From Plasmopara viticola (lineage: Eukaryota; Oomycota; Peronosporomycetes; Peronosporales; Peronosporaceae): a stretch of DNA of 64,000 nucleotides. The position numbers were made by a program, and so were the translations under genes. Of the stretch, positions 1,853 to 57,205 are shown piece by piece. The notes beneath the pieces were generated by a model. The model was given only the letters and a program-made list of their open reading frames with translations, was not told the origin of the DNA and did not search any database. Each line of letters begins with the position of its first letter. Positions within the stretch are counted from its first letter, which is position 1. Where the stretch lies: NCBI GenBank assembly GCA_001695595.3, contig MBPM02000083.1, positions 248,001 through 312,000 of the forward strand, read 5' to 3'.

Positions 1853-4800
1853 ATGGCGAACGCGCGACTCAAGCAGGCGCGGCGCCGCGCGTCTTCTCGA
1901 AGGCCAAACGCTGCGCAATCTATAGAAAACCATGCGGGTCAGACGCAGCTAGCTTCAACTTCTCCTCAAAATGCCCTGGTATCGCAAAACGAACACATTT
2001 CTGGTGTACAAAGTGAGCGGACGGCGCTTGAAGCCGCGCTTTTGGAGCGAAAACGAGCATTAGAGGCCAAAATTCTGGCCCTTACACTAGGAAAGCCCAT
2101 GAACAAAGAGACAGAGCCGGAATGTGACGCCACGGGCCGGCGCTTGGCCCGCTGTCATCGAGATTTCTTGCTTCAAGAGATGGAGTGGATGGCTGCGGAT
2201 TTCGCGCAGGAGCGCAAGTGGCGCGTTCGCAATGCCAAGATGCTTGGTCAGACACTAGTGTCCCATTTGAATCGACAGGAACAGCGCGTTGCGCGACAGA
2301 AGAAAAGTGAAGAGACGGCAAGACGTCGAACTGCCGCTCGCATAGGCCGAGACGTGAAGAAGTTTTGGACCAAGATTGACAAGATCATTTCATTTAAACT
2401 AAAGCTCGAGGCCGATGAAGTACGACAACGGCACATGCAAAAACACTTGCGGCTGCTAGTGAAGCAAACGGAGAAGTACGCGACGGCTTTGGCCGCTAGT
2501 TTCCAGGAAACGGAGACGATCAAAGAGGAAGAGAGATTGGACGAGACGGTTGAGAGGGAATGTATAGCAATGGAAAAGAGTGTAAATGATGATTGTGAGC
2601 ATAGTGACGATGCCGAGTTTGAACCAATAGAGGAAGAAGATGATGAGACGACCATTGAAGCCGAGGAGATGAGAGAAGGACGTGTATCAAGCCAAGAGGC
2701 GGCAATGGAAGTTGCATTGTTACAGGACGAAGGACGCATGTCGATCGAAGAGCTTCGAGCGAGGTATGGTATTACACAGGATGAGAATTGGTGTGCAAAA
2801 GACGCTGTGGATTCGAGTGAAGATGAGGCGTTTGAGCTGACGGAAGCAGAAAAAGAGTCTAAGACGCCGATTGCTCAGAAAAGTGAAAGGTTTAGACTTA
2901 GAAGAAGGAGACGGAGAGCGGCTGAGGTGGCTTTGTTGCAGCAAGACAGTAAATTGTCGACTGAGAACTTGCAGGTAGGACACGCTCACGCCGATGAGGA
3001 GACTTGTGGAGGAGAGGAGGGCGAAAGTGATGGCGATGAGCTTAGAGATAGTGATTATGTGGTTACAAGCCGCAAAGTAATGGAAGAGGCTGATGATGAG
3101 GCGACGATAGAAGAAGAGGAACGATACGAAGGAGAGGTTTTGATGTCTCAAAAGTCAAATGAATTGAGGCTACTCAAAGAGGAAGGCGAGATGACTACGA
3201 AAGAGCTTCGAGCTCGATACGGAGCATCAACAGATGACGAAGAGACTTGCAAGCCTAAAAAAAGAGGGTTGGATGTAGGGAAACGAGAGCACGGTTGTAG
3301 TGGCGAGACTTTGAATGCGAATACAACAGTAGCAAGAAGAAGCGGATACAAGCGACCTTATTTGCTGACTTCACGACTTGATTTACGGGAATATCAAGAA
3401 GCAGGCGTCAATTGGCTTCTCAGTATGTGCGAGCGACGCATTAACGGCATTCTTGCTGATGAAATGGGGCTGGGCAAGACGATCCAAACTATCTCACTCC
3501 TGGCTCACCTCGCGTGCGCTCAAGGATTGTGGGGTCCTCATTTGATTGTTGTACCGACTAGCTGTCTTGTGAATTGGGAGATGGAATTCAAGCGGTGGTG
3601 TCCAGCGTTCAAAGTCCTGACGTACTTCGGATCTGCAAAGCGTCGCAAGGAACTGCGACAAGGCTGGTCAAAGCAAAATGCCTTTCAAGTGTGTATTACA
3701 AGCTACCAGCTCGTTGTTCAAGACGCACATTGTTTTAAACGCAAAAAGTGGTACTATTTGATCTTGGATGAAGCTCACAACATTAAAAACTGGAAGAGTT
3801 TACGGTGGCAAACATTACTAACGTTTAGCTCTCAACGTCGATTGTTGCTCACAGGGACACCACTGCAAAATAATTTGCTCGAGCTGTGGGCTCTTATGCA
3901 TTTCTTGATGCCACACGTGTTTGCGTCTCGCAAAGAATTTAGCTATTGGTTTCAAAATCCTTTGGCTCTTATGGTGGAGAACGGTAGTGATCCAACTCAG
4001 TCAGGAGAAAATGGAGTTGAAAATGGCAAGGACTTGGTGACACAACTGCATGGTATCATCCGTCCTTTTGTTTTACGTCGGCTCAAGAAGGACGTAGCAA
4101 AACAATTACCAGGAAAGTTTGAGCACGTGATTACGTGTCAATTATCCAGGCGCCAGCGTTTTCTGTACGAAGACTTTATATCTCGCAGTACGACGCGTCG
4201 CGCAATGTTTGGTCGCGGCAAAGGCCGTGGAGCAAACTTTATGAGTATGATGAACGTTCTCATGCAACTTCGTAAAGTGTGCAACCATCCGGATCTGTTT
4301 GAGCCCCGTCCCATTGCGTCTCCGTTGGATATGCTCAGTCTTCACCTCAGAATGCCGTCACGTTGTGGATTCTTGATCGACGAGATCGTCAATGAGCGTC
4401 CTCGTATTGCGCTGTGGACAGGCACAAATTTGCCAGGATTAGAGTTGCTTCGTTATGACAAGATGAGCGCAATACGAAGAAGACAATTGATGTTCTATGA
4501 CGTCAATGTCCCCCTTCCAGCCGACACGATCACAAATGATTCACCTACGTTCAAGACAAAAACAGATATTGTTCGAAGGCTGATGGCACTCGCAGTCAAG
4601 CGGCGAGAATACTGGGCGCAGAAGCGAACCCGTATTTTAAATCTTCAAAATCTTCAAGCTGGGCTTTTTCTTGACATACCTGTGTTTGGAGATGCGTTGA
4701 TACAAGCTTGTACGATGCCGACATTCATTTCGTCCGCAATGGAAGTCCACGTGCATCGCGCTCGTTCTTTTCTTGACACTCGCGAACCAACTCAAGCTTT

Positions 4801-16065: not shown

Positions 16066-16077
16066 GATATTCTTACT

Positions 16078-16402
16078 TGTATTGTATTGTATTACGTTAT
16101 CGCGTTGCCAAGTTATGCACGTGCTAGGCTCTATGGCTAGTCCACGGCATAGAGTGGTGTCCGCATACGTCGAGTCTCGTTCGGCGGGCAGTGCAGCCAG
16201 CACCGAGGCCGTGAGGGTCTTCCATTATTTTGTGTACTTCTGACTTGGTAAGAGCCCAGGTGGCGCCCTAGTGCTGGAGACCGTCGCGTCGAGGGTGAGA
16301 CTCGTTAGAGACCTGCAGATGCCCGAGAGCACCTGCCCGAAGCGCGCGAGCATTAAGCCCCCGCGCTTGGAAGGAGGGCGTCACCCCAACCTTTTCCGAA
16401 AA
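16078..16402 (-). mobile_element. Non-autonomous LINE derivative, copy A (325 bp)
   Basis: It has the same orientation as the full-length LINE at 44869-48062 and is flanked by a perfect 12-bp target duplication GATATTCTTACT (16066-16077 and 16403-16414). It is made of three LINE segments: the 3' end (LINE 44869-45026), a short internal piece (about 45378-45408), and the 5' end (about 47928-48062). Everything between is missing. On the element strand the 3' tail is an AATAC pentanucleotide repeat. It carries a small deletion near the 3' end (CCATAGAGCC instead of CCAGACTGAGCC) that it shares with copy C but not copy B. It codes for nothing useful and must have been moved by proteins supplied in trans. 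Confidence 0.93.
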
Positions 16403-16414
16403 GATATTCTTACT

Positions 16415-29002: not shown

Positions 29003-30274
29003 ATGAACACCTTGACGCTCTCGCACGCCCTTGCCGGCTTTGCGCTTTTCAATGGCGTTGCCCAGGGCTTTAACGTCTACGTTTATAACAAGTGCGGCGA
29101 GGATTGCACGCTAGCTCACGTGACGCAAGGCGCTGTAGACACTGTGCAGGTTGCTGCTGGCACTTCTACTATCAGAAACATCCCGAGCGGTTCGCCTTCG
29201 CACGTGCTCAAGTGGGGAGTTGGCGCTCAGGCCACCCGTACGTTACTGTTACTTCTGACAAGGGCAAAAAATAGTAGTAATACTAATTCTGTTGTGTACT
29301 ACAGTGGCGGAATTTTCAGCTGAAATGAATATGGCCTGGTACGATATCAGTGCTATTCCCACTGGTCCCAAGAGTGGCGTACGTACAGACTTATTAAATC
29401 GCGATGAGCATCGTTTTAACGTTGTTTTATTGTACTTGGTGATAATTAGCCTGCAGATTGCAGCAGTTGGTCAGCATGTAAGGACCTCACGGGTGGAGTC
29501 GGCTTTAACAAGCCCATGCAGATCACGCCCCATGGTCAGGATGGGCAACGCTGTGTTGAACTCACGTGCTTACAAGACGATTGCAATGATGCTTACTTGT
29601 ATCCCAAAGACGACACAAAGACGCACACGTGCCCATTGTCGACCGACTTTGACGTCACGTTCTGTCCAGGCGGCTCTGGGGGCGCTGCACCTGCTCCACC
29701 AGCTCCGACGCCGGCGCCCGCACCCGAACCGACGGCAGCTCCGACGCCAACGCCACCTGTCGAACAACAGGAGCCAGAACCGCAACAGCAAGAACAGCAG
29801 CCGCAACAGCAAGAGGAGGAGCCTCAGGCTCAGATTCAGCCAAACGCAACGGCCGCGCCTACCGAATCATCCAGCGGGCCCAATGGGACTTTGCCCAATG
29901 CCAAGACGGCTTCGAACACGCCACCTCAAGCTGGTACTATTCGCAAAGGCAACACTCCAAGCGCAAGCAAATCTCCAACGCCAGAGACGACGCCGACCAC
30001 ACCTGACACTACGCAAATGATTGGCGAAGGAACGACTGACGAGACGGTTCAGCACATTAACACGCAATCGGAGAGCAGTGGAACCAATAGCACCCCGTAT
30101 ATCGTGCTGGGTGTCGGTGGCTTTGTGGGTATTGCGGCCGCTGCGGCTATCTTTGCCGTGCGCAAGAAGAAGGCAGCCTTGGATGATCTGGAGAGCAAGA
30201 CGCCTATATCGGGGAGGCCTCTTAGCACACTTGCTGGGTTCCGCACCCCGCGCGACAATGTCAGTGTTCTTTAA
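29003..30274 (+). CDS. Secreted thaumatin-like protein with Pro/Gln-rich stalk and C-terminal membrane anchor
   Basis: I read three exons: 29003-29237, 29305-29382 and 29457-30274. The introns are 67 and 74 bp; the first has GTACGT, a TACTAAT branch and CAG, and the second GTACAG and CAG. Phases close to give 376 residues. Residues 1-22 are a signal peptide. Residues 23 to about 175 form a Cys-rich domain with features of thaumatin-like proteins: an N-terminal NVYVYNKC strand, LAEF and AWYDIS motifs, a GGVGFNKPMQI motif, and closing C-P segments. Residues about 176-318 are low-complexity Pro/Gln/Ala/Thr, a likely O-glycosylated stalk. Residues 319-339 are a membrane helix, followed by a basic stop-transfer (RKKK) and a 37-residue cytoplasmic tail. 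It is therefore a type I plasma-membrane or cell-wall-facing protein. Binding partner and function are unknown. The second intron boundary is the least certain; the chosen one restores a CSSWSACK segment. Confidence 0.83.
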
Positions 30275-41000: not shown

Positions 41001-41296
41001 GGTGGAGAAAGCACCCAAGAATGCATTTGAAAAAATGAGGTTGAGTAAAGCAGAGATTGTTTTGGTCGTCGCGATCAACGGCAGGGCAGGTAAGACACTC
41101 ATTTACAAGCAGACTTGCTATGTTAACGATGTGAGCACAAGACCGAATGATCATTCGCATCAAGATTGAAGTTGGCAATTTACTTCAAGTTAAACCAATA
41201 TTTCAATACTTGGATGCTGTACATGTACATGACCGGAAATTGCTTACGTGTTGACATTTAATGTTGAGCCCCGGACTACCACATTTAAGCGAAGCT

Positions 41297-41623
41297 TGTA
41301 TTGTATTGTATTACGTTATCGCGTTGCCAAGTTATGCACGTGCTAGGCTCAGTCTGGCTAGTCCACGGCATAGAGTGGTGTCCGCATACGTCGGGTTTCG
41401 TTCGGTGGGCTGTGCAGCCAGCACCGATGTCGTGAGGGTCTTCCATTATTTTGTTTAGCTCCGACTTGGTAAGAGCCCAGGTGGCGCTCTGGTGCTGGAG
41501 ACCGTCGCGTCGAGGGTGAGACTCGTTAGAGACCTGCAGATGCCCGAGAGCACCTGCCCGAAGCGCGCGAGCATTTAGCCCCCGCGCTTGGAAGGAGGGC
41601 GTAACCCCAACCTTTTCCGAAGA
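41297..41623 (-). mobile_element. Non-autonomous LINE derivative, copy B (327 bp)
   Basis: It has the same three-segment structure as copies A and C and is flanked by an 11-bp duplication TAAGCGAAGCT (41286-41296 and 41624-41634). Unlike A and C it keeps CCAGACTGAGCC near the 3' end, as in the full-length LINE, and has AGCTCCGACTTGG at the internal junction, closer to the parent. It therefore represents a second, probably older or less derived, subfamily. Confidence 0.93.
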
Positions 41624-41869
41624 TAAGCGAAGCTGCACTACTTTAATGTGATAGAATTTGAAAAAAATAAAAAAAACAGGTCTAAATTACAAACACGATA
41701 TTTTGTAGAATTTCCGTTAGGTTTGTATGACACGTTTCTCGATTCCTGATCTTACTGTTGTGAGGTTTCCTGGTAGTACACTCGCGGCCAATCGGTTGTC
41801 CCACTGTGGTGGCCAGCTCTCATCAACCCGCATTTCGTGCAGCACAGCAATTGCCAATGCACAGCTTCA

Positions 41870-42140
41870 TTAGCAGCTCCGACGTCATGGACAGGCCACC
41901 GTCGATTCTCGTGTCGACAAAGTTGCTGTTGTAGCCGCTAATTGCACCCTACGATAATATTCGTTTGCGTGCCAAGCAATCGAGCACTAAAGACACGATC
42001 ACAGTCTAATATCTGGCTATATAAGAGCCAGCGGTCACCGGTACAATACTACGACTGGGTAAAGAAAGTAACGGAAAGTGTTGTCCGGGTACAAGTGGTT
42101 GCGCTGGATATTATAGTCTGAACCATAAGCGTAATGTGCT
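41870..42140. repeat. Dispersed repeat R2, copy 1
   Basis: It matches 49020-49270 in the same orientation with heavy divergence. Shared landmarks are TTGTAGCCGCT, TACGACTG/CACGACTG, GGA-A-TGTTGTCC-GG-ACAAGT and AGTCTGAACC/AGTCGAAACC. Identity is unknown. Confidence 0.55.
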
Positions 42141-43011
42141 GCTCGGTAACTAGTGGTCTTGAGGTTGGAACGTCAGCGTTTCGTTGGTGGCACCGACCAA
42201 TGGCGTGGAATAGTTGTCGATGACGCCAGTCTTTTTTTTTTAGCGGCCTGGTACATTGTTGGAAAATTTTCTCGCCAACGAACAAGGTTAAAACTGCAGT
42301 CATTAGATCCTGTACACTTCTCTGGTCTGTGCTTGAACGGCGATTATTGACTGAACCAATCGCTTTACACATGTACTATTCGCCGCCAGTAATGTGCAAA
42401 ATCAGCGCTACGCTACGATTTAGCAAAGGCTTAAATAAAGCAATACCTCGAACCTGACTCTTGCCTTGCTCGCGACATTGCCCATCTTTTATAGTCTTCA
42501 ATTTATGGGTAAAGTATCCTGTTCATTAAATAAAAAGCATGACAACGTAACATGTACATGTACGTACACATCCAGGCTAAAGGTTTAGCAACCATATTTC
42601 GTACGGCGATCGATTCCCTATTGCAATCGGTCGTCGGACGCAATAGGATTGTACAGCTAAAGGTTTGCCTGCTTGCAACTCAATTGTACGTAAAGTCGCC
42701 AAGAATTGTTTAAAAAAGAGCCATGCCCTCCATCGTGTTTTCTTTAATGCACATGGACAGAATTCAATGCAAGTGAAAGACAATGGACGATGCACTTTGG
42801 TCAAGAGCATTGTTCCTCGCATCTTACAAATCGTTCAAGCGGCGTATTGTAAGTAATGTAATGTAATCAGAGTAGAGTACAAAAACATCAACCGAGACCG
42901 CCGACTATTTATTGAAAGCTTAGCATAAAACGTTTATTCTTATAGGAAAGCAAGCGCAAACTTATAGTATGACACAACAAAAGGGTACGACGACACAATA
43001 AAGTGTCGATG
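42141..43011. other. Gene-free stretch
   Basis: Small overlapping frames on both strands (42153-42372, 42577-42856) show no recognisable domain. The 3' flank of the metalloprotease gene is at the right edge. Confidence 0.35.
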
Positions 43012-44148
43012 CTAGAAGTCAAAACGAGACTTGATATGCTCGAGAACGCTACGAAGAAGCCATCCGTCGCCATGTGTGAGTGTTGGGTTATTATCCATCA
43101 CACACGGTGGGTAGTCGGCGGGTTTATTCTTGGCTTCATACATCTCTGGTAAGCCAAACCCATGGCCGATTTCGTGCAGTAGAACGAGCATTTCGTCTTC
43201 GTCCATCACCTTGAGCATATCGTTCACTTCGACCCGTTGGCCCCAATCTCCGCCCGTTCCGATTGCACCTTCCCCCGGCTTGGTCGACGGCCACAACGAC
43301 ATGTCGAACGGCTCGTTCTTGCACGCACTCGTGTCCGCCTGATCGGCTTGTCCTTGATGCTTGTAACACTCTTCGGGGCATTGAGGACTCCCCTCGGCAT
43401 CCAACACGCCTTCGTAGATGGTTCCAAGCGAGTCGTCGGTCCAATCCATGATCGACTTGTCCCTGACGGCAAACGCCACCACAGTGATTTCAACCTTCTC
43501 CAGAGGCCAGCACTGGTACCCGACGAGCCAGCGGTGCCACAGATTCATTTGCCTGTTCAGCATCTCTTGAAACTTGGAAGCGACTGCTTTTGTGAGCTTC
43601 TGGTCATTGTCCCACCGGACACAGTAGCTAAGTTTGCCTTGATTCGTGATGAGCTGATCAAAGATGAGGTTCTTGAAAGGAGGAATGTAGTCCTTCATCG
43701 TGCGCGTCCACACCTCATCGACCATCTCACGGGTGAGACCCTCTCCGTTCGGATTGCCCATGACACATTGACCGCTGGCTGACGTGACGTCCCCAAAGGT
43801 GGCTTGCTTGCTTGAAGAGGCGGTCGATACATTGGAAGAACTTTGGGAGCTTCCATGGTGCCACGAGCCGGACTCGATAAAAGTCTCAATTGGAGGTTGA
43901 GTAGCCGGCAAGTCAAGTGATCCAGAAGGAGGGGGAGGTCCTTCGATCGTAGGAGAAGACGGCGCATCAAACTCTTGGGCGGTTTCAAGCGAGCCCGCGT
44001 CGGGGTCGAGCATCTGTGGTGGAATTGAATTCGCTTGCTTTGGCAAACATTTGGAAGAATCTCCTACCGCAAACCCTCCAACAAGGACTAGAAGCGTGAC
44101 GGTAAGCATGGACGGCGTTGCAAAGCGTGGAGCCCAATGTGGCGGCAT
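43012..44148 (-). CDS. Secreted zinc metalloprotease-like protein (HExxH with Met-turn)
   Basis: This is a 378-residue protein. The open frame extends upstream to a GTG, but the first ATG, at 44148, gives a proper signal peptide (MLTVTLLVLVGGFAVG core, cleavage near residue 30). Residues about 30-140 are Pro/Ser-rich and probably disordered. The C-terminal half is the catalytic-like domain, with Cys residues suited to disulphides. The zinc motif HEIGHGFGLPE lies near residue 328, and a likely Met-turn (CVMDNN) follows about 27 residues later, as in metzincins. The third zinc ligand, usually His or Asp, is Glu here (position 11 of the motif), so activity is not certain. It is likely an extracellular protease or a protease-derived protein of a type found in fungi and oomycetes; the substrate is unknown. 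It has no intron and lies about 700 bp from the full-length LINE. Long antisense frames across it are shadows. Confidence 0.82.
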   Translation of the reverse strand: MPPHWAPRFATPSMLTVTLLVLVGGFAVGDSSKCLPKQANSIPPQMLDPDAGSLETAQEFDAPSSPTIEGPPPPSGSLDLPATQPPIETFIESGSWHHGSSQSSSNVSTASSSKQATFGDVTSASGQCVMGNPNGEGLTREMVDEVWTRTMKDYIPPFKNLIFDQLITNQGKLSYCVRWDNDQKLTKAVASKFQEMLNRQMNLWHRWLVGYQCWPLEKVEITVVAFAVRDKSIMDWTDDSLGTIYEGVLDAEGSPQCPEECYKHQGQADQADTSACKNEPFDMSLWPSTKPGEGAIGTGGDWGQRVEVNDMLKVMDEDEMLVLLHEIGHGFGLPEMYEAKNKPADYPPCVMDNNPTLTHGDGWLLRSVLEHIKSRFDF

Positions 44149-44856
44149 GGCGCAAAAAAAAATAATGACGTGAGTTTGATGGACGTCTCTTGCGAAGTTT
44201 ACGAGGAAAGGGGTCCAAGGTTGCACAGGAGCATGTAAAAGTGTTTTCGTGCATAGTATTGGGCGGCTCGGGTTTATGGACGGGTAATAAGAATCGGATG
44301 GACATTACTTATGGGCACTGCAATAAACATTGGGATCAGCGACGGTACATGCAATCGGCCGTTGCGTACTGGACAATAAAAAGTGACATTCATGAAAAGC
44401 TTGACGCTGTGCCGCGTTGCCACGTAGATAGCCGCACAGCGTCTTCGTAGTGGTCGTCTAAAGGAATTGTTATGGCTTTTTACTTGATGGTAGTCACAGA
44501 AATCAATAATGATGACATTTAGATAAAAGAAAAAACGATTAAAATATGGCCCGTCTTTTACTCGAGTTCTAGATGCTATTATTGTTGAAATTTGGCTTAT
44601 TGCTGAAATTCAAAAGCATATCTTACAAATCGAATGGTCAATTCTTCCCTTTATTCTCCGATTCCTTAACATAATCCTTTTGCGAGCTTAATAATCAATT
44701 GGACCATTTTTTTATTAAGTGGCATCACATATTTGAAGCTCTTGAAATACGACAAGCACAATCAATGTTAATAATTTCAAGTCAATACATGTGGGTATGA
44801 GTGAAACGTGTGGGCACGAGTAAAACAGTATCGTAATGTTTTTGTTATTAATGGGT
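44149..44856. promoter_or_regulatory. Promoter side of the metalloprotease gene
   Basis: About 700 bp between the metalloprotease start and the LINE target duplication. AT-rich in the second half. I could not place a convincing initiator. Confidence 0.3.
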
Positions 44857-44868
44857 TGTGAGATAAGT

Positions 44869-47800
44869 AATGTAATGTAATGTATTACGTTATCGCGTTG
44901 CCAAGTTACGCACGTGCTAGGCTCAGTCTGGCTAGTCCACGGCATAGAGTGGTGTCCGCATACGTCGAGTCTCGTTCGGCGGGCAGTGCATCCAGCACCG
45001 AGGTCGTGAGGGTCTTCCAATTATTTCGGTCTTGTGCAAGGGTACGAAGCAGTTCGAGGTCTTGTGCTGTCCGGAGTCGAAAGCCGGAGCCACAGGAAAC
45101 AAGGTCGTGGTCGAGTGTTGAGGGGAGCGTGGTGCGGGGACGTCCGCGCCATTTTGCTGCGGTGGAGAAGAAGTAGGCGCGCATCTGGAGGTTAGCTGGA
45201 ATGTCGGGATTGCGGCGAAGTACATGGCCAAACAGGCGCCAGCGAGCTTGAGTCAGTCGTAGTCTCAGCGGCCGCTCATCACAGAGGTCGTACAGTCTTG
45301 CATTCGAAATGTGTCGAGGGTAGCGGTAGCCAAGAGCGTAGCGAAGCTGGCGGCGATGGAAACTCTCGAGGCCGTGGAGCTCTGACTTGGTAAGAGCCCA
45401 GGTGGCGCAGTTGTACAGCAGAATTGGTAAAACGTAGGTGTTGTACAATCGAATGCGGGTCTTGGGTGAGATGAGCGTGGGGCGGAGCCAGACGGACCAG
45501 AGGCGGTGGAGCGCGAGGGTGGCCAGGGACTTGCGTCGGGATAGATCTTCAATATCGCCGAGGAGTGTTCCGAGCTTCTTAGTGTGGCGCCAGGTTTCTT
45601 CTCGGGCTCGAGCGTGTCGAGTGGCGCCTGACGGGTTGCAGTGGCGGCGGATTTTGATGACTTCGGTCTTGGCTTCGTTCATGTGTAGACTCCAGCGACT
45701 GAGAATCGCTGGGGCCTGGTCCTGGATAAGCTGGACGACGGATGGATCAGTGCAGATGAAGTCGGCGTCGTCGGCGTAGACGATCATCTGCTGCAGGAGG
45801 TTGTGTGGCACATCGAGTGCACCGGAGAGGTCGCGAAGAGCTGCTTCGAGGTAGATAGTAAACAGAACGGGTGAGAGTGAGTCGCCTTGGGGTGTACCTA
45901 CATTACTTTCGAACGGGTCGAGAGCTTGGTTGCTGGATCGGAGTGAAAGTGTCGTGTGGCTCAGGAGGAGTCGGATGAGTCGAACTTCGTCGTCTTGGAG
46001 GAATGTCTGGAGCACAGTGATGAGCTTGGATCTGTCGATGCTGTCGAATGCGCGGGATAAGTCGATACCTAACACATAAACTGTTTCACGGCGGTCGGTG
46101 GCTCGTGCGGTGAGCCATTTGTGAGCCCAGACGGCGTCTGCCGTGCTGCGATGAGCGCGGAAGCCGCTTTGGTGTGGCGAGAGGAAGTTGTCGACGTCGG
46201 ATCGGATCCGGTTGAGGACGACGAGTGATACGGCTTTGCGGATGCTGTTGAGTAGGACGATCGGTCGGAGACTGGAGCATTCACCTTGGGGTTTGTTCGG
46301 CTTTGGGAGACACAGAAGAGTGCCTTCGCCGAGCTCGAGTGGCTGTCCAAGTGCGAAACTGTCGTTGATCAGAGCCGCGAGGGGTTCGGCAATCTGGTCG
46401 GTTCCGTACTTGAGCAGTTCTGCTGGAATATCGTCGGGTCCTGATGCACGTCCGTTGCTGAGTCGGCGGAAAGCGCGGGCGAGCTCGTCACCAGTGATTG
46501 GGGAGCTCAGAGGTCGCGCATCGCTGCTTGGGATGATTGGAGCGTGGGTTGGATCCGTTAGTTGTCCTTTGAAGTAGCTGCGGATGAGGTTGTTCGCGGT
46601 TGGTCGGTGTAGGATGTATTTGCCTGTGCTGTCGTGCACGGTGACTTGTCCTGGTGGTCGCGGGAAGAGCTCGCGTACGGCTGAGTACATGCGTACGGAG
46701 TCGTGAAGTTCTTCGATGCGGCTGATCTTGGCGTCGAGAGCTTGGAAGGCGAGTTCGCGGCAGCGTTGGTGGATTTGGCGGAGTACGGCGTTACGTTCGC
46801 GGCGAAGTTCTGCGATGTTCGCAGCGTGGTCGTTTTGGACACGGAGTCGGAGTTGACGTTGCTGTTCGGACAGTGCTGTGAGCGTGGCGTCGATGTATCT
46901 GCGGGTGCTGCGTTGAGGGGAGAAGCCAACAGCTAGTTCGGCGGCCGTTTTTGTCGTCTGTAGAGTTGCGTTCCACCGTTGCTGGATCGGGTCGGTGACT
47001 GGGATCGGGTGTTCAGTTGAGGCAGCGATCAGCGCTCGTACGTAGGCGTCGCGGGCGCCTTCGTCATGGACTAGGGCGTCGCGGGCGAGGTGCAGTCGTC
47101 GTGGGAGCTCTGAGCGCGGTCGGAACCGGATCTGAGCGGCGCCCTCTAGAGTGAAGTCCGCGGTGACGAGCTTGTGGTCTGATGAAGTGAGAGTGCCGCC
47201 CCAAGACTGCGCATCCACGCACAGGCGACGGCAGTTCTGCGAGCAGAGGATGTAGTCAATCTGGTTGTAGATAAAGTGGTCCGATCTGCGCTGGGTCCAC
47301 GTCGTGATGTTCTTTGCTCGCTTCGGGAAATCTGTGTTTGTCACAAAGAGGTTGTGAGTCTGACAAAAGGAGGCGAGGACATTACCGTTGCGGTTGCGAT
47401 AACCGCGGCCGTGGTTCCCAAGGAAGGGTTCGAGGTCGTGGCGCCGGCCCAGCTTTGCGTTGAAATCGCCTGTAAGGAAGGTTAGATCGCGGCGCGGGAG
47501 GGAGGTGAGCGCGGTGCTGAGGTCAGCGTAGAATCTGTCGACGGCTTCTAGGGGGTAGCCGCTGTGCGGTGAGTACGCATTCACGATGTTGACGGTGCCG
47601 ATGTGGGGTAGTCGCAGTTTTAAGATACCGATACGGTCGGAGTGAGACCAGTAGCGTTGGAGGAATGGTCGGAGTCGCGGAGAGATTGCGAATCCGATGC
47701 CGTGTAACTCGGTTTTTGCTTGCAGGGTTAGAAGAAGGAAGTCATCAATGAGGTGCTCACCTCTATCGTAGATCTTGGTTTCTTGGAGGCCAAGGATATC

Positions 47801-48062
47801 GACGCGGTAGCGCCGGAGATCTTCGGGGAGTGTTTCGTGCTTCTTGCGCTTCGAACCTAGAGAATTCACATTAAATGAGCCAATCCGGATGCGGTTGGCG
47901 CGGTTAGGACGTGGAAGGGGGTTTGGCCTGGTGCTGGAGACCGTCGCGTCGAGGGTGAGACTCGTTAGAGACCTGCAGATGCCCGAGAGCACCTGCCCGA
48001 AGCGCGCGAGCATTTAGCCCCCGCGCTTGGAAGGAGGGCGTCACCCCAACCTTTTCCGAAAA
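44869..48062 (-). mobile_element. Full-length non-LTR retrotransposon (LINE), 3194 bp
   Basis: It is flanked by a perfect 12-bp target duplication TGTGAGATAAGT (44857-44868 and 48063-48074). On the element strand it starts TTTTCGGAAAAGG, has about 50 bp of 5' UTR, one ORF of 1035 codons, and a 3' UTR of under 40 bp that ends in a short ATTAC repeat rather than poly(A). A single EN-RT ORF, a length of 3.2 kb, a short 3' UTR and a microsatellite tail are like the RTE group, but clade assignment needs a tree. An intact ORF plus a perfect duplication suggests a recent insertion. Confidence 0.95.
44906..48013 (-). CDS. LINE ORF: apurinic-type endonuclease plus reverse transcriptase
   Basis: This 1035-residue protein is uninterrupted. 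Residues about 40-285 are an exonuclease-endonuclease-phosphatase type endonuclease that nicks the target: FNVN (47-50), LQETK, GDFNAK (about 183) and SDHKLV (about 279) supply the expected catalytic residues. Residues about 480-830 are the reverse transcriptase: NGRASGPDDIPAE, motif A GIDLSRAFDS (about 651), motif B GTPQGDSLSPVL, and motif C YADDAD (about 744). The C-terminal region has the helical tail with YNCATWALTKSEL and RWRLFGHVLRR, common in LINEs. There is no RNase H domain, no gag-like ORF1 and no zinc-finger pair. All catalytic residues seen are intact, so the protein could be active and could mobilise the three short derivatives in this window. The start ATG at 48013 lies inside the 5' segment that the short copies keep. 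Confidence 0.95.
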   Translation of the reverse strand: MLARFGQVLSGICRSLTSLTLDATVSSTRPNPLPRPNRANRIRIGSFNVNSLGSKRKKHETLPEDLRRYRVDILGLQETKIYDRGEHLIDDFLLLTLQAKTELHGIGFAISPRLRPFLQRYWSHSDRIGILKLRLPHIGTVNIVNAYSPHSGYPLEAVDRFYADLSTALTSLPRRDLTFLTGDFNAKLGRRHDLEPFLGNHGRGYRNRNGNVLASFCQTHNLFVTNTDFPKRAKNITTWTQRRSDHFIYNQIDYILCSQNCRRLCVDAQSWGGTLTSSDHKLVTADFTLEGAAQIRFRPRSELPRRLHLARDALVHDEGARDAYVRALIAASTEHPIPVTDPIQQRWNATLQTTKTAAELAVGFSPQRSTRRYIDATLTALSEQQRQLRLRVQNDHAANIAELRRERNAVLRQIHQRCRELAFQALDAKISRIEELHDSVRMYSAVRELFPRPPGQVTVHDSTGKYILHRPTANNLIRSYFKGQLTDPTHAPIIPSSDARPLSSPITGDELARAFRRLSNGRASGPDDIPAELLKYGTDQIAEPLAALINDSFALGQPLELGEGTLLCLPKPNKPQGECSSLRPIVLLNSIRKAVSLVVLNRIRSDVDNFLSPHQSGFRAHRSTADAVWAHKWLTARATDRRETVYVLGIDLSRAFDSIDRSKLITVLQTFLQDDEVRLIRLLLSHTTLSLRSSNQALDPFESNVGTPQGDSLSPVLFTIYLEAALRDLSGALDVPHNLLQQMIVYADDADFICTDPSVVQLIQDQAPAILSRWSLHMNEAKTEVIKIRRHCNPSGATRHARAREETWRHTKKLGTLLGDIEDLSRRKSLATLALHRLWSVWLRPTLISPKTRIRLYNTYVLPILLYNCATWALTKSELHGLESFHRRQLRYALGYRYPRHISNARLYDLCDERPLRLRLTQARWRLFGHVLRRNPDIPANLQMRAYFFSTAAKWRGRPRTTLPSTLDHDLVSCGSGFRLRTAQDLELLRTLAQDRNNWKTLTTSVLDALPAERDSTYADTTLCRGLARLSLARA

Positions 48063-48089
48063 TGTGAGATAAGTCTTTAGTATAAATCC

Positions 48090-48345
48090 TGAAACGGCCC
48101 TGACACTAAATTTGATCGAAATAAATCAACCATTCAAATTAAAAAGTATTTTGTGAGTCACTTTACAAACTGACAGAGAAAAAAATGTAGCTGGCAGGGC
48201 CGTCCAGACGTATATACAAAATCAATGTTGAAATCACAAAATCTTGATAACATTGAAAGTAAAGTTGTCGTACTCTGGCTCAAGCAACTACTTTGCCGTC
48301 CAAGACGTCCGCGGTGTAACAGTGTCTCGTGCAGTATATTATGTG
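48090..48345. repeat. Dispersed repeat R1, copy 2
   Basis: Diverged match to 34320-34620 (see landmarks there). The full-length LINE is inserted immediately to its left, and the first bases of the repeat are next to the right target duplication. Confidence 0.65.
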
Positions 48346-50081: not shown

Positions 50082-51287
50082 TTATATCGAGCGAGAAGCT
50101 TCGAGCGACCCCACCTCGTATCGCAAGAGATCTCGCACGCCACCTTCGTCGCAAAAGGGACTATGCAGGCTATTACGCGTAGCAATGGCACGAAGATGCC
50201 ACGCCAACATGCCTTCATCCTCCAAGCAGTGGTGGCAAATACGAACGCGAGTGATCCGCGCACCCCGCACACTCACTTCTTCCATAAAGTAGCAGCGTCC
50301 GCAAACGACTTCGCCACACCGCATGCAATTGTACTTTTTCATCCATGGATTCAACCCACGAGGGCACACGTAACAATCATGGACTGCGTTCTTTGGTGTC
50401 CATTCCGCTCGAGGTTTGAAATTCTCGGGGTCTAAAAACCGTTTTCGATAGTGCTGGCAAACGCGACGACAAGTGCCGCCAAAGATTGTCATGTAGATGC
50501 GACTCGTGATTTGTGAAGCCACACCTCGAAGCTCAATGCCCATGAGGTAACACACGTTTGTCCTTGCATTGCTTTTTCCGGAATTGCGAAAAAAAAAGCC
50601 CGAATGCCACACTTTGCTTCGAAGGATCTTGTTGGTTGCCAATCGATCGGGACACTCGGGGATGTCGACCGAGTTCCAGAGACAGTAGCCGACCGTTGAG
50701 CCGTCCTTTGTCTGAATGACGTCAGTGCACACACAGACGCAAATGTCGCGTTTGCTCATGAAATTTGGCATGCCAAAGCTCGTGTAGCGAATGTACACTG
50801 ATCGGTAAGGATGGGAGGTTGTAACTGGCTGAAGGACCGACAATATCTTGGCTTCGTGGATGTTTTCATGCATGATACGCATGTGTTTCAGCAGTGTCTT
50901 GGAGCTAGTCGTGAGAAACAGCTGCATGATCTCTGTCACAGGCGCGTCCGTTTGTCCTACACTACAGAATCGAGCAAAGCCTCGCCCGACGCTTTCGTCC
51001 ACAAAGTAATCAATCCCTTTCTTGCGCATTCGTGGCTTCCAGATAGTCATGAGTTCGCGATGTCCCATCATTGAAGCCACCACTTCTCGCTCGACGTCTT
51101 GCATCATTGCCAACATTTTCGCTTTTCGACTCGAACTGAGGTGACTGCTATTGTCGCCCGGTTGAGAGCGACAAATTTGACTGTCTGAGAGAGACAAGCT
51201 CGTCATGCTGGTAAAGAGCTGGAGATTGTTTCGAGACTGTCGCCGGTTGCCTTTCGACGGTCGAAAAGCTAAGGAAGGGATGGACAT
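50082..51287 (-). CDS. START-like/FYVE-type zinc finger protein
   Basis: This is a 401-residue, intronless protein with ATG at 51287. The N-terminal 60 residues are Ser-rich. Residues about 60-290 look like the START-like lipid-binding region that precedes FYVE fingers in a large oomycete family (a helix, then alternating strands with VYIRYTSFGMPN, TKDGSTVGYCLWNS). Residues about 305-350 hold four Cys pairs (CYVC, CMRC, CGRC, CHHC) that can bind two zinc ions, as in a FYVE finger. FYVE domains bind phosphatidylinositol 3-phosphate on endosomes, but the basic R-R/K-H-H-C-R motif is replaced here by KKYNCMRCG and the N-terminal W-x-x-D is not obvious, so lipid binding may be weak or changed. 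The probable role is a membrane-trafficking or lipid-binding adaptor. The tail after the finger is charged. A long antisense frame over part of the gene is a shadow. Confidence 0.87.
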   Translation of the reverse strand: MSIPSLAFRPSKGNRRQSRNNLQLFTSMTSLSLSDSQICRSQPGDNSSHLSSSRKAKMLAMMQDVEREVVASMMGHRELMTIWKPRMRKKGIDYFVDESVGRGFARFCSVGQTDAPVTEIMQLFLTTSSKTLLKHMRIMHENIHEAKILSVLQPVTTSHPYRSVYIRYTSFGMPNFMSKRDICVCVCTDVIQTKDGSTVGYCLWNSVDIPECPDRLATNKILRSKVWHSGFFFRNSGKSNARTNVCYLMGIELRGVASQITSRIYMTIFGGTCRRVCQHYRKRFLDPENFKPRAEWTPKNAVHDCYVCPRGLNPWMKKYNCMRCGEVVCGRCYFMEEVSVRGARITRVRICHHCLEDEGMLAWHLRAIATRNSLHSPFCDEGGVRDLLRYEVGSLEASRSI

Positions 51288-53354: not shown

Positions 53355-54404
53355 ATGGCCCCTCCCGCGCAAACCATGAAGTATCGTTTCTTGGGTGACT
53401 CTGGTTTGCTCGTCTCCCGTCTATCGTTTGGGAGCTGGGTGACCTTTGACGCGCAACTGGACTTTGAAAAGGCCTATGACATCATGGAGCACGCCTACAA
53501 AAACGGCGTGAATTTCTTCGACAACGCCGAGGTGTATGCCAACGGCAAGTCGGAGCTCATCATGGGCAAGGTGGTGAAGGCTGGCATCGAGCGCAAGGTG
53601 TGGGAGCGCGAGGACCTCGTGATCAGCACCAAACTCTTTTTTGGCACCAAGCCAGGCCCGAACAATACGGGCAACAGCCGAAAACACATTGTCGAAGGCA
53701 TGAAGGCGTCGCTCAAGCGGTTTGATCTGGACTATGTGGACCTAGTCTTTTGCCACCGCCCGGATCCGTCGACGCCCATTGAGGAGTCTGTGCGTGCAAT
53801 GAACTTTATCATTGAGCAAGGCTGGGCCTTTTACTGGGGCACTAGTGAATGGTGCGCCAAGGACATTATTGAGGCCTGTGACATTGCCGATCGCCTCGGT
53901 CTGATCCGTCCTGTGTACGACCAACCGCAGTACAATATTTTCGAGCGCTCGCGCGTCGAGTACGACTTTGATGTGTTGTACAAAAAGTACAAGTACGGCC
54001 TCACCACGTGGTCTCCGCTGGCTTCGGGCTTTCTGACGGGCAAGTACAGCAAGGGCATTCCAGAAGGCTCGCGCCTGTCCCAGCCGGCATACAAAGAGTT
54101 GTTATCGAAGGGCATGGAGGAAAAGGTGGCCAAAGCGGACAAGCTCATTGAAGTGGCGAAAGAAGTGGGCTGCTCGCTAGCGCAGCTGGCGATTGCCTGG
54201 GTGGCCGCCAATCCGAACGTGTCTACAGTGATCCTTGGGGCCACTAGTATCAAACAATTGGATGAAAACCTCAAGGCGATGGAATTTGTCGACAAGATCA
54301 CACCCGAAATTCGCGACAAGATCGATGCGATTGCCAACTTTAAGCCCTCGCTGGTCGCTCAAGCCGAGCCTTGGGTTGTTGACCGACGCCAAAAGTGGCT
54401 GTAA
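53355..54404 (+). CDS. Aldo-keto reductase, potassium-channel beta-subunit type
   Basis: This is a 349-residue, intronless protein, a TIM-barrel NADPH-dependent aldo-keto reductase of the Kv-beta/AKR6-like group. The catalytic tetrad can be seen: Asp and Tyr in FFDNAEVYANGKSE, Lys in VISTKLFFG, His in DLVFCHRPDP. The NADPH pocket includes YNIFERSRVEYD and the TWSPLASGFLTGKY segment; the C-terminal VILGATSIKQLDENLKA motif is the usual diphosphate/adenine-binding part. The length is that of the family core, without the long N-terminal inactivation tail of animal Kv-beta. It is cytosolic; the natural substrate is unknown, and a link to a channel is not shown. It has high GC and even codon use, consistent with strong expression. 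The ATG at 53355 is 33 bp from an initiator-like element. The Copy C LINE derivative lies 580 bp downstream. Confidence 0.95.
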   Translation: MAPPAQTMKYRFLGDSGLLVSRLSFGSWVTFDAQLDFEKAYDIMEHAYKNGVNFFDNAEVYANGKSELIMGKVVKAGIERKVWEREDLVISTKLFFGTKPGPNNTGNSRKHIVEGMKASLKRFDLDYVDLVFCHRPDPSTPIEESVRAMNFIIEQGWAFYWGTSEWCAKDIIEACDIADRLGLIRPVYDQPQYNIFERSRVEYDFDVLYKKYKYGLTTWSPLASGFLTGKYSKGIPEGSRLSQPAYKELLSKGMEEKVAKADKLIEVAKEVGCSLAQLAIAWVAANPNVSTVILGATSIKQLDENLKAMEFVDKITPEIRDKIDAIANFKPSLVAQAEPWVVDRRQKWL

Positions 54405-54973: not shown

Positions 54974-54985
54974 ATACTTGCACAT

Positions 54986-55312
54986 TTCGGAAAAGGTTGG
55001 GGTGACGCCCTCCTTCCAAGCGCGGGGGCTAAATGCTCGCGCGCTTCGGGCAGGTGCTCTCGGGCATCTGCAGGTCTCTAACGAGTCTCACCCTCGACGC
55101 GACGGTCTCCAACACCAGGGCGCCACCTGGGCTCTTACCAAGTCAGAACTACACAAAATAATGGAAGACCCTCACGGCCTCGGTGCTGGCTGCACTGCCC
55201 GCCGAACGAGACCCGACGTATGCGGACACCACTCTATGCCGTGGACTAGCCATAGAGCCTAGCACGTGCATGACTTGGCAACGCGATAACGTAATACAAT
55301 ACAATACAATAC
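54986..55312 (+). mobile_element. Non-autonomous LINE derivative, copy C (about 327 bp)
   Basis: It is in opposite orientation to copies A and B and has the same three segments and internal junctions. It ends with AATAC repeats. Its target duplication is imperfect: ATACTTGCA at 54974-54982 and 55309-55317, and the next base differs before the bases agree again. It shares the CCATAGAGCC 3' marker and the TGTGTA(G/C)TTCTGACTT junction with copy A. Confidence 0.92.
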
Positions 55313-55317
55313 TTGCA

Positions 55318-57205
55318 AATTTGCAAAGGTTGTTTGCATTAAACCCCACTCCAACCGATAATAGATTATTTCTATAGCTTAGAGTTACTGTATCAAGGAG
55401 GGGGGAATGTGATTAGCGAAAAGGGGGAGTTTGGTCAGCAGCTCCCTATAAAATTTTATACAGGCAATCGTCTTATTTGAAACATAGTTTTGGCGCTCGC
55501 CCTGAAGCCATTCAAAGCCTTGAAAGCGGTAGCTATCAATCACTCGCCCACTGCCTGCTTCTCTTTACAACCACACTATTGGAGTGACTGGAACAGGTCG
55601 CGTACAAGTTTTAGTCAAACACAAGGGCAAAGAAATGAATGGCCATGACAATCTCAACTTTACATTGAGTGCTCTGTATATTAGGCTACAATGGAGCTTG
55701 TTGCTTTGCGTACCTCACATCTCAAAAGGGCTTTCTCGCTCCGTAATCAGCCATAATGACTTGAGTAAAAGCTGCCTTTTAAGCAGCTGGCATAGTCTGG
55801 ATCACAGAGCAACCATTTGAATTCCACCGCAATACTGTTTTACGTCACGCGCAAAGACTGGTACTCGCAAACAACAAACGCGTTACATACTTTCCGGAGA
55901 GTAATTGCACACAGTCGGTGATGATTCAGTAACTGTTAATGCTGACGCTGGTAAAGAGTGGTAGACACGTTTAAGCGATGAAGCAAACAATGGCGCGTGA
56001 ATGTATTGATCGAAATAATATTACATAGATGTCACTTGTCGAATTACTGACCGCAAAGAAACTGTGGCCTTCGGAGACTGGCCTGTCTAAGGCAAAAACC
56101 TAAGTCGCACCAAAGTCTCTGTGCTCGTGGTGGCTCCCTTTGAAGCGCGTGTCTTTTCGGGACAAATGACTCGAGTGACGTCAACAGATTTTACTTGTTG
56201 CGTCAAACACTATGTGATGTAAATGGTCATCAAACGCCAGTGAAATCATTTCTGCGGTGATCGTCGATACAAACCTCCGAGTGCATGAATTTATACTAGC
56301 GCCCATTAAAGATCTGTCAGCAAGAAGGTTCGGTGGCACAGCACAATTCTTTTTCGTTTAAGCTGACAGCAAAGAAAGACGTCCTGCTGTAATAGCTCGA
56401 ATCGTTGTATCAAAGTCGCGTTCTGACCACCATAAGTTTGGGGAGCACTTGAATGTATGGGTTGTCCTCATTGCGCTCAGGTGACTCAATAACAAAAATT
56501 ACCCACAAAATTTATGGGATCCGCTGCCTTTCAGTTGCTGTTCGGCTCTTTTAATAGCTCCAAGGACGGTTTGCCTTTCCGGTGTGTCGTTGACATTAGT
56601 AGCTAGGCCTATTGGTTAGATGGAGTGGTAGACACAGGAAACACGGCTGCTTGCAAAAAGCAAAGTGTAGTTTTGTTTCTTAGGGTCAATTTGCAAGATC
56701 TAAGATTTTTATAGTAGTACATGTGGGTACCAAACCAGACAATTATAAGCCACATCGTGTTACAAAGCAGATAAAATATGGCTTGTTTCCTTAATGTTAA
56801 GCCCAACGAGACTGTGGTCGAGTGGAATTACACGTTATAGCTCTTTTCTTTCTAGTGAAGAGAAGGGAGTTCAATGGTAGGTGCGCGCACCTGCTGAAGA
56901 CCAAAATATGGCGTGTAATCGCTACGACTGAGCTTCAGTTTTAATTATTCTGCTTTGAGGTCAATTGCTTACCACAACGGCATCTAGCATTTACTGCCCC
57001 TCAATGATGTGGACAAAGAAAAAAATGTTTTCATCTGAGAAAAAGTTTTTATCGCTACGAGGCTCTGTTTTTCTTTTTAATAGGTAAGTTTACAGGGATT
57101 TCCTCATTTAGCATTTCTTAGAATTGCCTTCGAATTCAATCATATCGAAGATTAACCACCCGACCGATTGAGCACAGTTATGCTGTGCTTTCAAAAACTA
57201 TTTAC
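55318..57205. other. Gene-free stretch
   Basis: No coding frame or RNA gene was recognised. Small frames such as 55584-55820 and 56609-56806 lack motifs. Confidence 0.35.

Follow-up and report, generated by a model that had tools for sequence, protein, structure and literature searches.

The R2 SIDEs of Drosophila rDNA are internally deleted, retain both ends of the parent element and are thought to use the machinery of the parent (PMC3414825). Either a template jump or recombination was proposed for their origin, the latter being preferred by the authors (PMC3414825). SIDEs were called rare in that report and in a study on Lepidoptera (PMC3414825, PMC6740152). The latter describes Persaeus and Zenon (CR1) as a high-copy SIDE and its LINE partner, thought to originate more than once (PMC6740152). 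According to the parts of PMC2323293 that treat the trypanosomatid families, RIME is a form of ingi from which the centre is deleted, occurs in a unicellular eukaryote and is considered active; RIME and NARTc have copy numbers equivalent to those of their partners (ingi and L1Tc), NARTc represents a 3' deletion, SIDERs are extinct, and a 79-bp signature is common to all. Among oomycetes, the SINE-like repeats of Peronospora effusa are tRNA-like in the section that describes them (PMC11540230), and SINEs are mentioned without a SIDE design in the relevant passages of two further reports (PMC9584435, PMC3522703). Non-LTR elements (LINEs and SINEs) were put at approximately 3% of the P. viticola genome in a 2017 report (PMC5394536), so the repeats described below may sit unnamed in a repeat library. 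No SIDE from an oomycete was found in our limited literature searches.

The window, a stretch of 64,000 nucleotides of Plasmopara viticola (C83:248001-312000), contains a full-length LINE and three short copies, A, B and C, built from pieces of it. The genome search covered 92,937,831 bases in 358 contigs. The features of the LINE and its target-site duplication (TSD) were as follows.

44869..48062, minus strand: full-length parental-type LINE, 3,194 bp, with an ACATT-repeat tail
44857-44868 and 48063-48074: 12-bp TSD of the window LINE
44906..48013, minus strand: LINE ORF of 1,035 aa, endonuclease (Exo_endo_phos) and reverse transcriptase
47927..48062, minus strand: LINE 1-136, the 5' piece kept by the short family
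45378..45408, minus strand: LINE 2655-2685, the 31-bp middle piece
44869..45026, minus strand: LINE 3037-3194, the 3' piece kept with the repeat tail, its first few bases being ambiguous against the linker
47723..48062, minus strand: LINE 1-340, the 5' part kept by a second (1.16-kb) deleted class found elsewhere in the genome
44869..45677, minus strand: LINE 2386-3194, the 3' part kept by the second deleted class

The short copies and their TSDs were located as follows.

16078..16402, minus strand: short copy A, subfamily S2
16066..16077, no strand: TSD of A, one side
16403..16414, no strand: TSD of A, other side
41297..41623, minus strand: short copy B, subfamily S1, the finding under study
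41286..41296, no strand: TSD of B, one side, TAAGCGAAGCT
41624..41634, no strand: TSD of B, other side, TAAGCGAAGCT
54986..55312, plus strand: short copy C, subfamily S2
54974..54987, no strand: TSD of C, one side, 14 bp with one mismatch, overlapping the first element bases
55309..55322, no strand: TSD of C, other side, overlapping the tail

Host genes were also present in the window, and one of them shares 81-86% identity with named proteins of Peronospora and Phytophthora. A FYVE zinc-finger protein gene (50082-51287, minus strand), an aldo/keto reductase resembling a potassium-channel beta subunit (53355-54404, plus strand) and a thaumatin match that was weak and fell short of its cut-off (29516-30274, plus strand) could be recognised.

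The 325-bp copies are very probably a SIDE from a single-ORF LINE with an APE-like endonuclease, which arose once, was templated by its own copies and was inserted by target-primed reverse transcription (TPRT) with the LINE protein acting in trans. The enzyme used, its action in trans, transcription from the 5' end, recognition of the 3' end and the single origin are the parts of this account that we infer. The short element would have arisen once as an internally deleted LINE derivative, and its RNA, transcribed from the kept 5' end, would serve as the template from copy to copy. The kept 3' end would be recognised by LINE protein supplied in trans from the few intact LINE copies, and insertion would follow by TPRT.

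The parent LINE combines endonuclease and reverse transcriptase (RT) in one ORF. Among the candidates scored, the nearest relatives of the LINE protein were Phytophthora sequences, with a best identity of 56%; one homologue was labelled 'Craniofacial development protein 2', a label borne by RTE/BovB proteins. An open stretch of at least 1,035 codons was kept at 6 of 17 LINE-type loci. Four LINE copies were 99.6% identical to the window LINE, and these five carry five different TSDs. One LINE insertion on C64, with the same TSD and flanks, is present twice in opposite orientation (L098 and L099). They differ from each other precisely at the place where L099 has the sequence of the short family, which may be due to gene conversion by a short copy or to a short-read polishing error. 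Origin of the short family from the LINE subfamily of L099 and L101 (AAAATAATGG) was considered and dropped, since L098 and L099 represent a duplicated insertion differing at that place, so that such conversion or polishing is no less likely.

Comparison with the window LINE revealed that copies A, B and C consist of the same three LINE pieces (1-136, 2655-2685 and approximately 3043-3194) and a short A-rich linker. A and B lie on the minus strand like the window LINE, and C on the plus strand. Copy A matched 47927-48062 with 98.5%, 45381-45408 with 100% and 44871-45026 with 94.2% identity, and B and C matched the same three pieces. A and C were 98.2% identical over 325 bp, while B shared 94.8% identity with A and 95.4% with C. 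The 5' piece of 136 bp comprises a 49-nt leader and the first 29 codons of the LINE. The middle piece of 31 bp (LINE 2655-2685) is followed by the A-rich linker AAACAAAATAA or variants of it, which in most short copies reads AAACAAAATAA or ACACAAAATAA and is not clearly LINE-derived. Both ends of the parent are kept and its coding middle is absent. The initial annotation had described A, B and C as three fixed LINE pieces with the same junctions, a description that was borne out by alignment to the LINE and that holds genome-wide. Its piece boundaries stood overall, with small corrections to a 5' piece of 136 bp and a middle piece of 31 bp plus the A-rich linker. The clean TSDs of 11-12 bp that it gave for A and B were recovered, with 12 bp for A and 11 bp for B, and that of C, said to be slightly decayed, was 14 bp long with one mismatch.

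The length and copy number of the short family are SINE-like and its tail is LINE-like, as in a conventional SINE with a head derived from a small RNA and only the tail in common with the LINE. However, the head of the short family is LINE 1-136 itself (98.5% identity in A), neither a tRNA in the window nor a B box in copy B was found, and the scanned stretch gave no relevant Rfam match; such an origin is extremely unlikely. The Pol III B box was absent from copy B at up to 2 mismatches, but just 49 of 500 shuffles had one, so this absence says little; A-box-like words were present in the same search at 1 mismatch. The 79-bp signature of trypanosomatid RIME, NARTc and SIDER elements lies at the 5' end, with an HDV-like ribozyme. 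Neither an HDV-like nor any other relevant Rfam match could be found at E<=5 in 41200-48200, which covers the LINE and copy B, the sole match at this limit being a below-threshold Sphinx_1. RNA folding revealed a modest excess of stability, with z values of -2.4 for the LINE 5' piece and -2.7 for copy B. The small ORFs of the short copies were mostly 38-42 codons long from the LINE start, with varied ends.

Pattern searches of the whole genome were read against control patterns. The junction-1 word, with at most 1 mismatch, had 1,578 matches (770 + 808) against 5 (3 + 2) for the reversed control. A single pattern with both exact junctions, the genome-wide count suggested as a check by the initial annotation, had 929 (436 + 493) against 0; the junctions are therefore not a product of chance. 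An RT-interior word absent from both deleted classes matched 20 places at up to 2 mismatches (control 0), LINE sequence continuing beyond junction 1 was present at 451 (control 7), and the junction word of the second deleted class (the long class) at 409 with up to 2 mismatches (control 44). Read as pattern counts and not as a census, these numbers correspond to roughly 1,500 short copies and roughly 20 copies with the RT region, and to roughly 365-430 long-class copies if the non-LINE places running past junction 1 are long class. At 325 bp each, the short copies would arithmetically make up approximately 0.5% of the genome, and in pattern counts they outnumber RT-bearing copies by 1,578 to 20, or approximately 79 to 1.

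Sixty short loci, the first 60 listed junction-1 places, were analysed individually. Since they were chosen by an exact junction 1, this junction was not independently counted in them. Junction 2 and the three-piece order could be observed, within small variation, in 58 of 63 copies (the 60 listed loci plus A, B and C), and the other five were not scorable for both junctions. At the 51 loci with paired ends, the 5' end was reached in 48 and the 3' end in 50. The 60 short copies compared below consist of these 51 of the 60 listed loci, the three window copies and six short copies adjoining LINE or long-class loci of the sample. LINE and long-class copies were taken from the best-scoring candidates, 40 scored of 1,933, and form a non-random sample. 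At L086, L091, L096, L100, L104 and L109, short copies adjoin LINE or long-class copies, some interrupting each other, and several of these loci have flank similarity in common.

Splicing would likewise give fixed junctions, and some LINE copies retain an open frame, as expected if each short copy were a fresh splice or same-deletion product of full-length LINE RNA, with no short lineage. Spliced integrated L1 copies of this type are known as SpIREs. The removed stretches, however, have no GT-AG ends at either junction, and splicing was rejected on this ground. The excess of short over RT-bearing copies in the pattern counts also speaks against fresh production, as do the states, absent or rare in LINE copies, that many short copies carry; we regard it as very unlikely.

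These changes typical of the short family mark many copies, which points to short copies having templated short copies. A C at position 37 of the 3' piece was present in 55 of 60 short copies, as against 2 of 16 LINE copies and none of 20 long-class copies. A G>T change with a 2-nt deletion was found in 29 of 60 short copies (S2, including A and C of the window), 0 of 16 LINE copies and 2 of 20 long-class copies; both long-class carriers, L115 and L116, are one duplicated insertion with both flanks in common. The mean difference was 2.6% among S2 copies and 4.2% among S1 copies, and one short pair was identical over the compared columns. This identical pair, the near-identical LINEs and the open frames may be taken as signs of recent activity. 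A tree of 106 copies over 270 columns had no starred branch and left 82 of its 99 inner branches open; at least 8 label changes were needed for S (shuffled mean 34.9) and at least 12 for S and S0 together. The short copies form a multi-copy lineage with fixed junctions, which the tree does not resolve as a single clade, and the probable single origin rests on the common junctions and not on the tree.

A further group, S0, has an A-run at junction 2. Six or more As follow the middle piece at 31 places, and at 24 of these the run is unbroken up to TGG. The 12 S0 copies examined comprise 10 of the 31 places, taken by list order, plus L096 and L100, in a sample that leaves out six places of repeated duplication (C145, C183, C230). 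The LINE state at position 37, an A, was present in 9 of 12 S0 copies compared to 2 of 58 other short copies, tail position 148 was T in 9 of 12 compared to 8 of 58, and most states typical of S were missing from S0. Such LINE-like states would favour an old A-run. Junction 1 was approximately 3 nt shorter in 9 of 12 S0 copies, a form present at 30 places genome-wide (control 0). This shortening is best read as a derived change, and S0 would thus be a sister line rather than the ancestor. Pairs of S0-type places lie 4.93-4.97 kb apart on C78, C145, C183 and C230, apparently in one duplicated region. The middle piece with eight As occurs exactly at 30 genome places, seven of which are outside the 31 S0 places (C20:580425, C45:161526, C111:60198, C175:41828, C183:47677, C200:32056 and C200:40281). 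These seven are without the short 3' piece as defined and could be decayed S0 copies or junctions with other partners. The single deleted master proposed in the initial annotation holds as regards one family with fixed junctions and independent insertions; it was not copied unchanged, as the sub-lineages S0, S1 and S2 indicate, and one founding event with several successive masters would fit the sequences better.

Of 58 short, 12 S0, 20 long-class and 16 LINE copies, those with both ends present were scored for TSDs, and one 'O' pair (L109) was set aside. A score of at least 8 was reached by 48 of 55 short copies, 7 of 11 S0 copies, 13 of 19 copies of the long class and 11 of 13 LINE copies, compared to 14 of 584 shuffled pairs. 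In a separate run restricted to short copies, the counts were 46 of 51, compared to 3 of 398 in the control. The median TSD length was 13 in short, S0 and long-class copies and 12 in LINE copies. An ACATT tail was present in 10 of 16 LINE copies, 17 of 20 copies of the long class and 8 of 12 S0 copies; among the other short copies, 47 of 58 had an ACAAT tail. At 9-12 bases upstream of the TSD, a T-rich block was clear at LINE sites (9 of 11) and weaker at sites of the short family (21 of 51) and of the long class (3 of 11), compared to 70 of 592 background windows. Since TSDs are frequent in each class relative to the shuffled control, the mode of insertion appears to be common to all classes, and the TSDs and tails of the short copies are those of TPRT-like insertion as in the parent. 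The common ends and the TSD length suggest that the short family uses the protein of the LINE.

Duplication of DNA, segmental or satellite-like, was weighed as another means of spread, and some duplication is seen. Four same-strand long-class junctions on C3 (approximately 548458-554055) have an exact spacing of 1,794 bp and are probably a tandem array, and the LINE pair L098/L099 and the long-class pair L115/L116 are duplicated. When flanks of 100 or more bases were compared, both flanks were common to just two pairs, one LINE pair and one long-class pair, and to no short pair, ten S0 copies being too short-flanked for this comparison. Some flank similarity was present in 46 pairs of copies, which we suspect to arise from the clustering of elements in other repeats. 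Similar flanks had been named by the initial annotation as the mark of segmental duplication; no two short copies with testable flanks agree in both, and their TSDs are independent. With TSDs in 48 of 55 short copies, spread of the family by duplication is most improbable.

Breakpoints other than those of A, B and C had been named as evidence against a single master. Derivatives with other breakpoints do exist, namely the long class of approximately 1.16 kb; it is a separate lineage and leaves the short family unbroken. At its 22 loci, this class consists of LINE 1-340, an A-run and LINE 2386-3194, with one deletion, and some copies start a few to 41 bases late at the 5' end. No copy of it was found in the window. 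The A-run was 5-23 long in the 20 copies measured, in which the next longest run was 4-5. It follows CCCTG or a close variant at the 22 loci, with the CAAGC of the LINE absent. At this point the LINE copies have CCCTGCAAGC or something close to it, and the bodies of 16 LINE copies contain no A-run longer than 6. The run sits in LINE sense at the end of the upstream piece, as a poly(A) jump predicts.

The deletions probably go back to reverse transcriptase jumping between LINE RNAs; in the long class, a LINE RNA that ended too early may have left its poly(A) tail as the internal A-run. Both families could have arisen when the RT left a 5'-truncated cDNA and resumed at the poly(A) 3' end of a LINE RNA that had been polyadenylated prematurely; fossil tails would then remain at LINE 340 (A-run of the long class) and LINE 2685 (A-run or A-rich linker of the short family). 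We put this forward tentatively and consider it doubtful for the two families jointly; the poly(A) fossil reading for the long class alone is somewhat more likely. If the linker of the short family was an A-run, the 31-bp piece would be the last 31 nt of the prematurely polyadenylated RNA before its poly(A) site, copied before the RT jumped once more, to the 5' end. On this reading, SIDEs would be a repeatable by-product of premature LINE RNA polyadenylation.

Alternatively, the junctions may have formed where the LINE already had short A stretches, through DNA repair or microhomology, with slippage then lengthening these into the A-runs; for this we see a chance slightly short of even. The LINE carries CAAGCAAAAACC to the right of the left break of the long class and AACGAAG at its right break. 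At the second right break of the short family it carries AAAGAAATGG, which can supply most of the As and which a single G>A change would turn into seven As. Moreover, L123 of the long class has CTGAAGAAAAA, in which some of the CAAGC of the LINE would seem to have been retained, a few short copies read AAGCAAAGTAATGG, closer to the LINE sequence than to an A-run, and the run is unbroken in just 24 of the 31 S0 places. Repair is opposed by the length of the long-class run beside the next longest, by the CCCTG preceding it with CAAGC missing, and by the lack of runs above 6 in the 16 LINE bodies.

Two SIDEs have thus been found that derive from one LINE, which still has open-frame copies, and the deleted copies far exceed the potential carriers of the enzyme. 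The system offers a natural test of which LINE ends are needed, how parasites of LINEs arise and whether they do so via poly(A) template jumps. In annotated downy mildew genomes, deleted LINE copies may account for part of the repeats that are filed as SINE or left unclassified.

Judged by its structure, the short family is in kind a SIDE, as are the R2 SIDEs of Drosophila, Persaeus of Lepidoptera and RIME of trypanosomes. Alu is 7SL-derived and dimeric, and the A-rich linker inside it is regarded as a former tail of the left half; this linker resembles the long-class A-run, although Alu is not derived from its LINE partner. The P. effusa repeats, in the section devoted to them, are short, high-copy, found in Peronosporaceae and tRNA-like, whereas the short family is LINE throughout. 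Persaeus is a CR1-derived insect element with a centre of no clear origin; the centre here is a 31-bp LINE piece, or an A-run in the long class. RIME resembles the short family as a parent with its centre removed, but RIME and NARTc are described as equal to their partners in number, whereas the short family exceeds the RT-bearing copies by approximately 79 to 1. Internal deletion with the 5' and 3' ends of the parent kept is common to the R2 SIDEs and the short family. R2 SIDEs are described as rare, lie in rDNA and begin with a ribozyme, whereas approximately 1,500 copies by pattern counts are dispersed here, with no ribozyme match; unlike in R2 SIDEs, three LINE pieces are joined, and one LINE has given two deleted classes.
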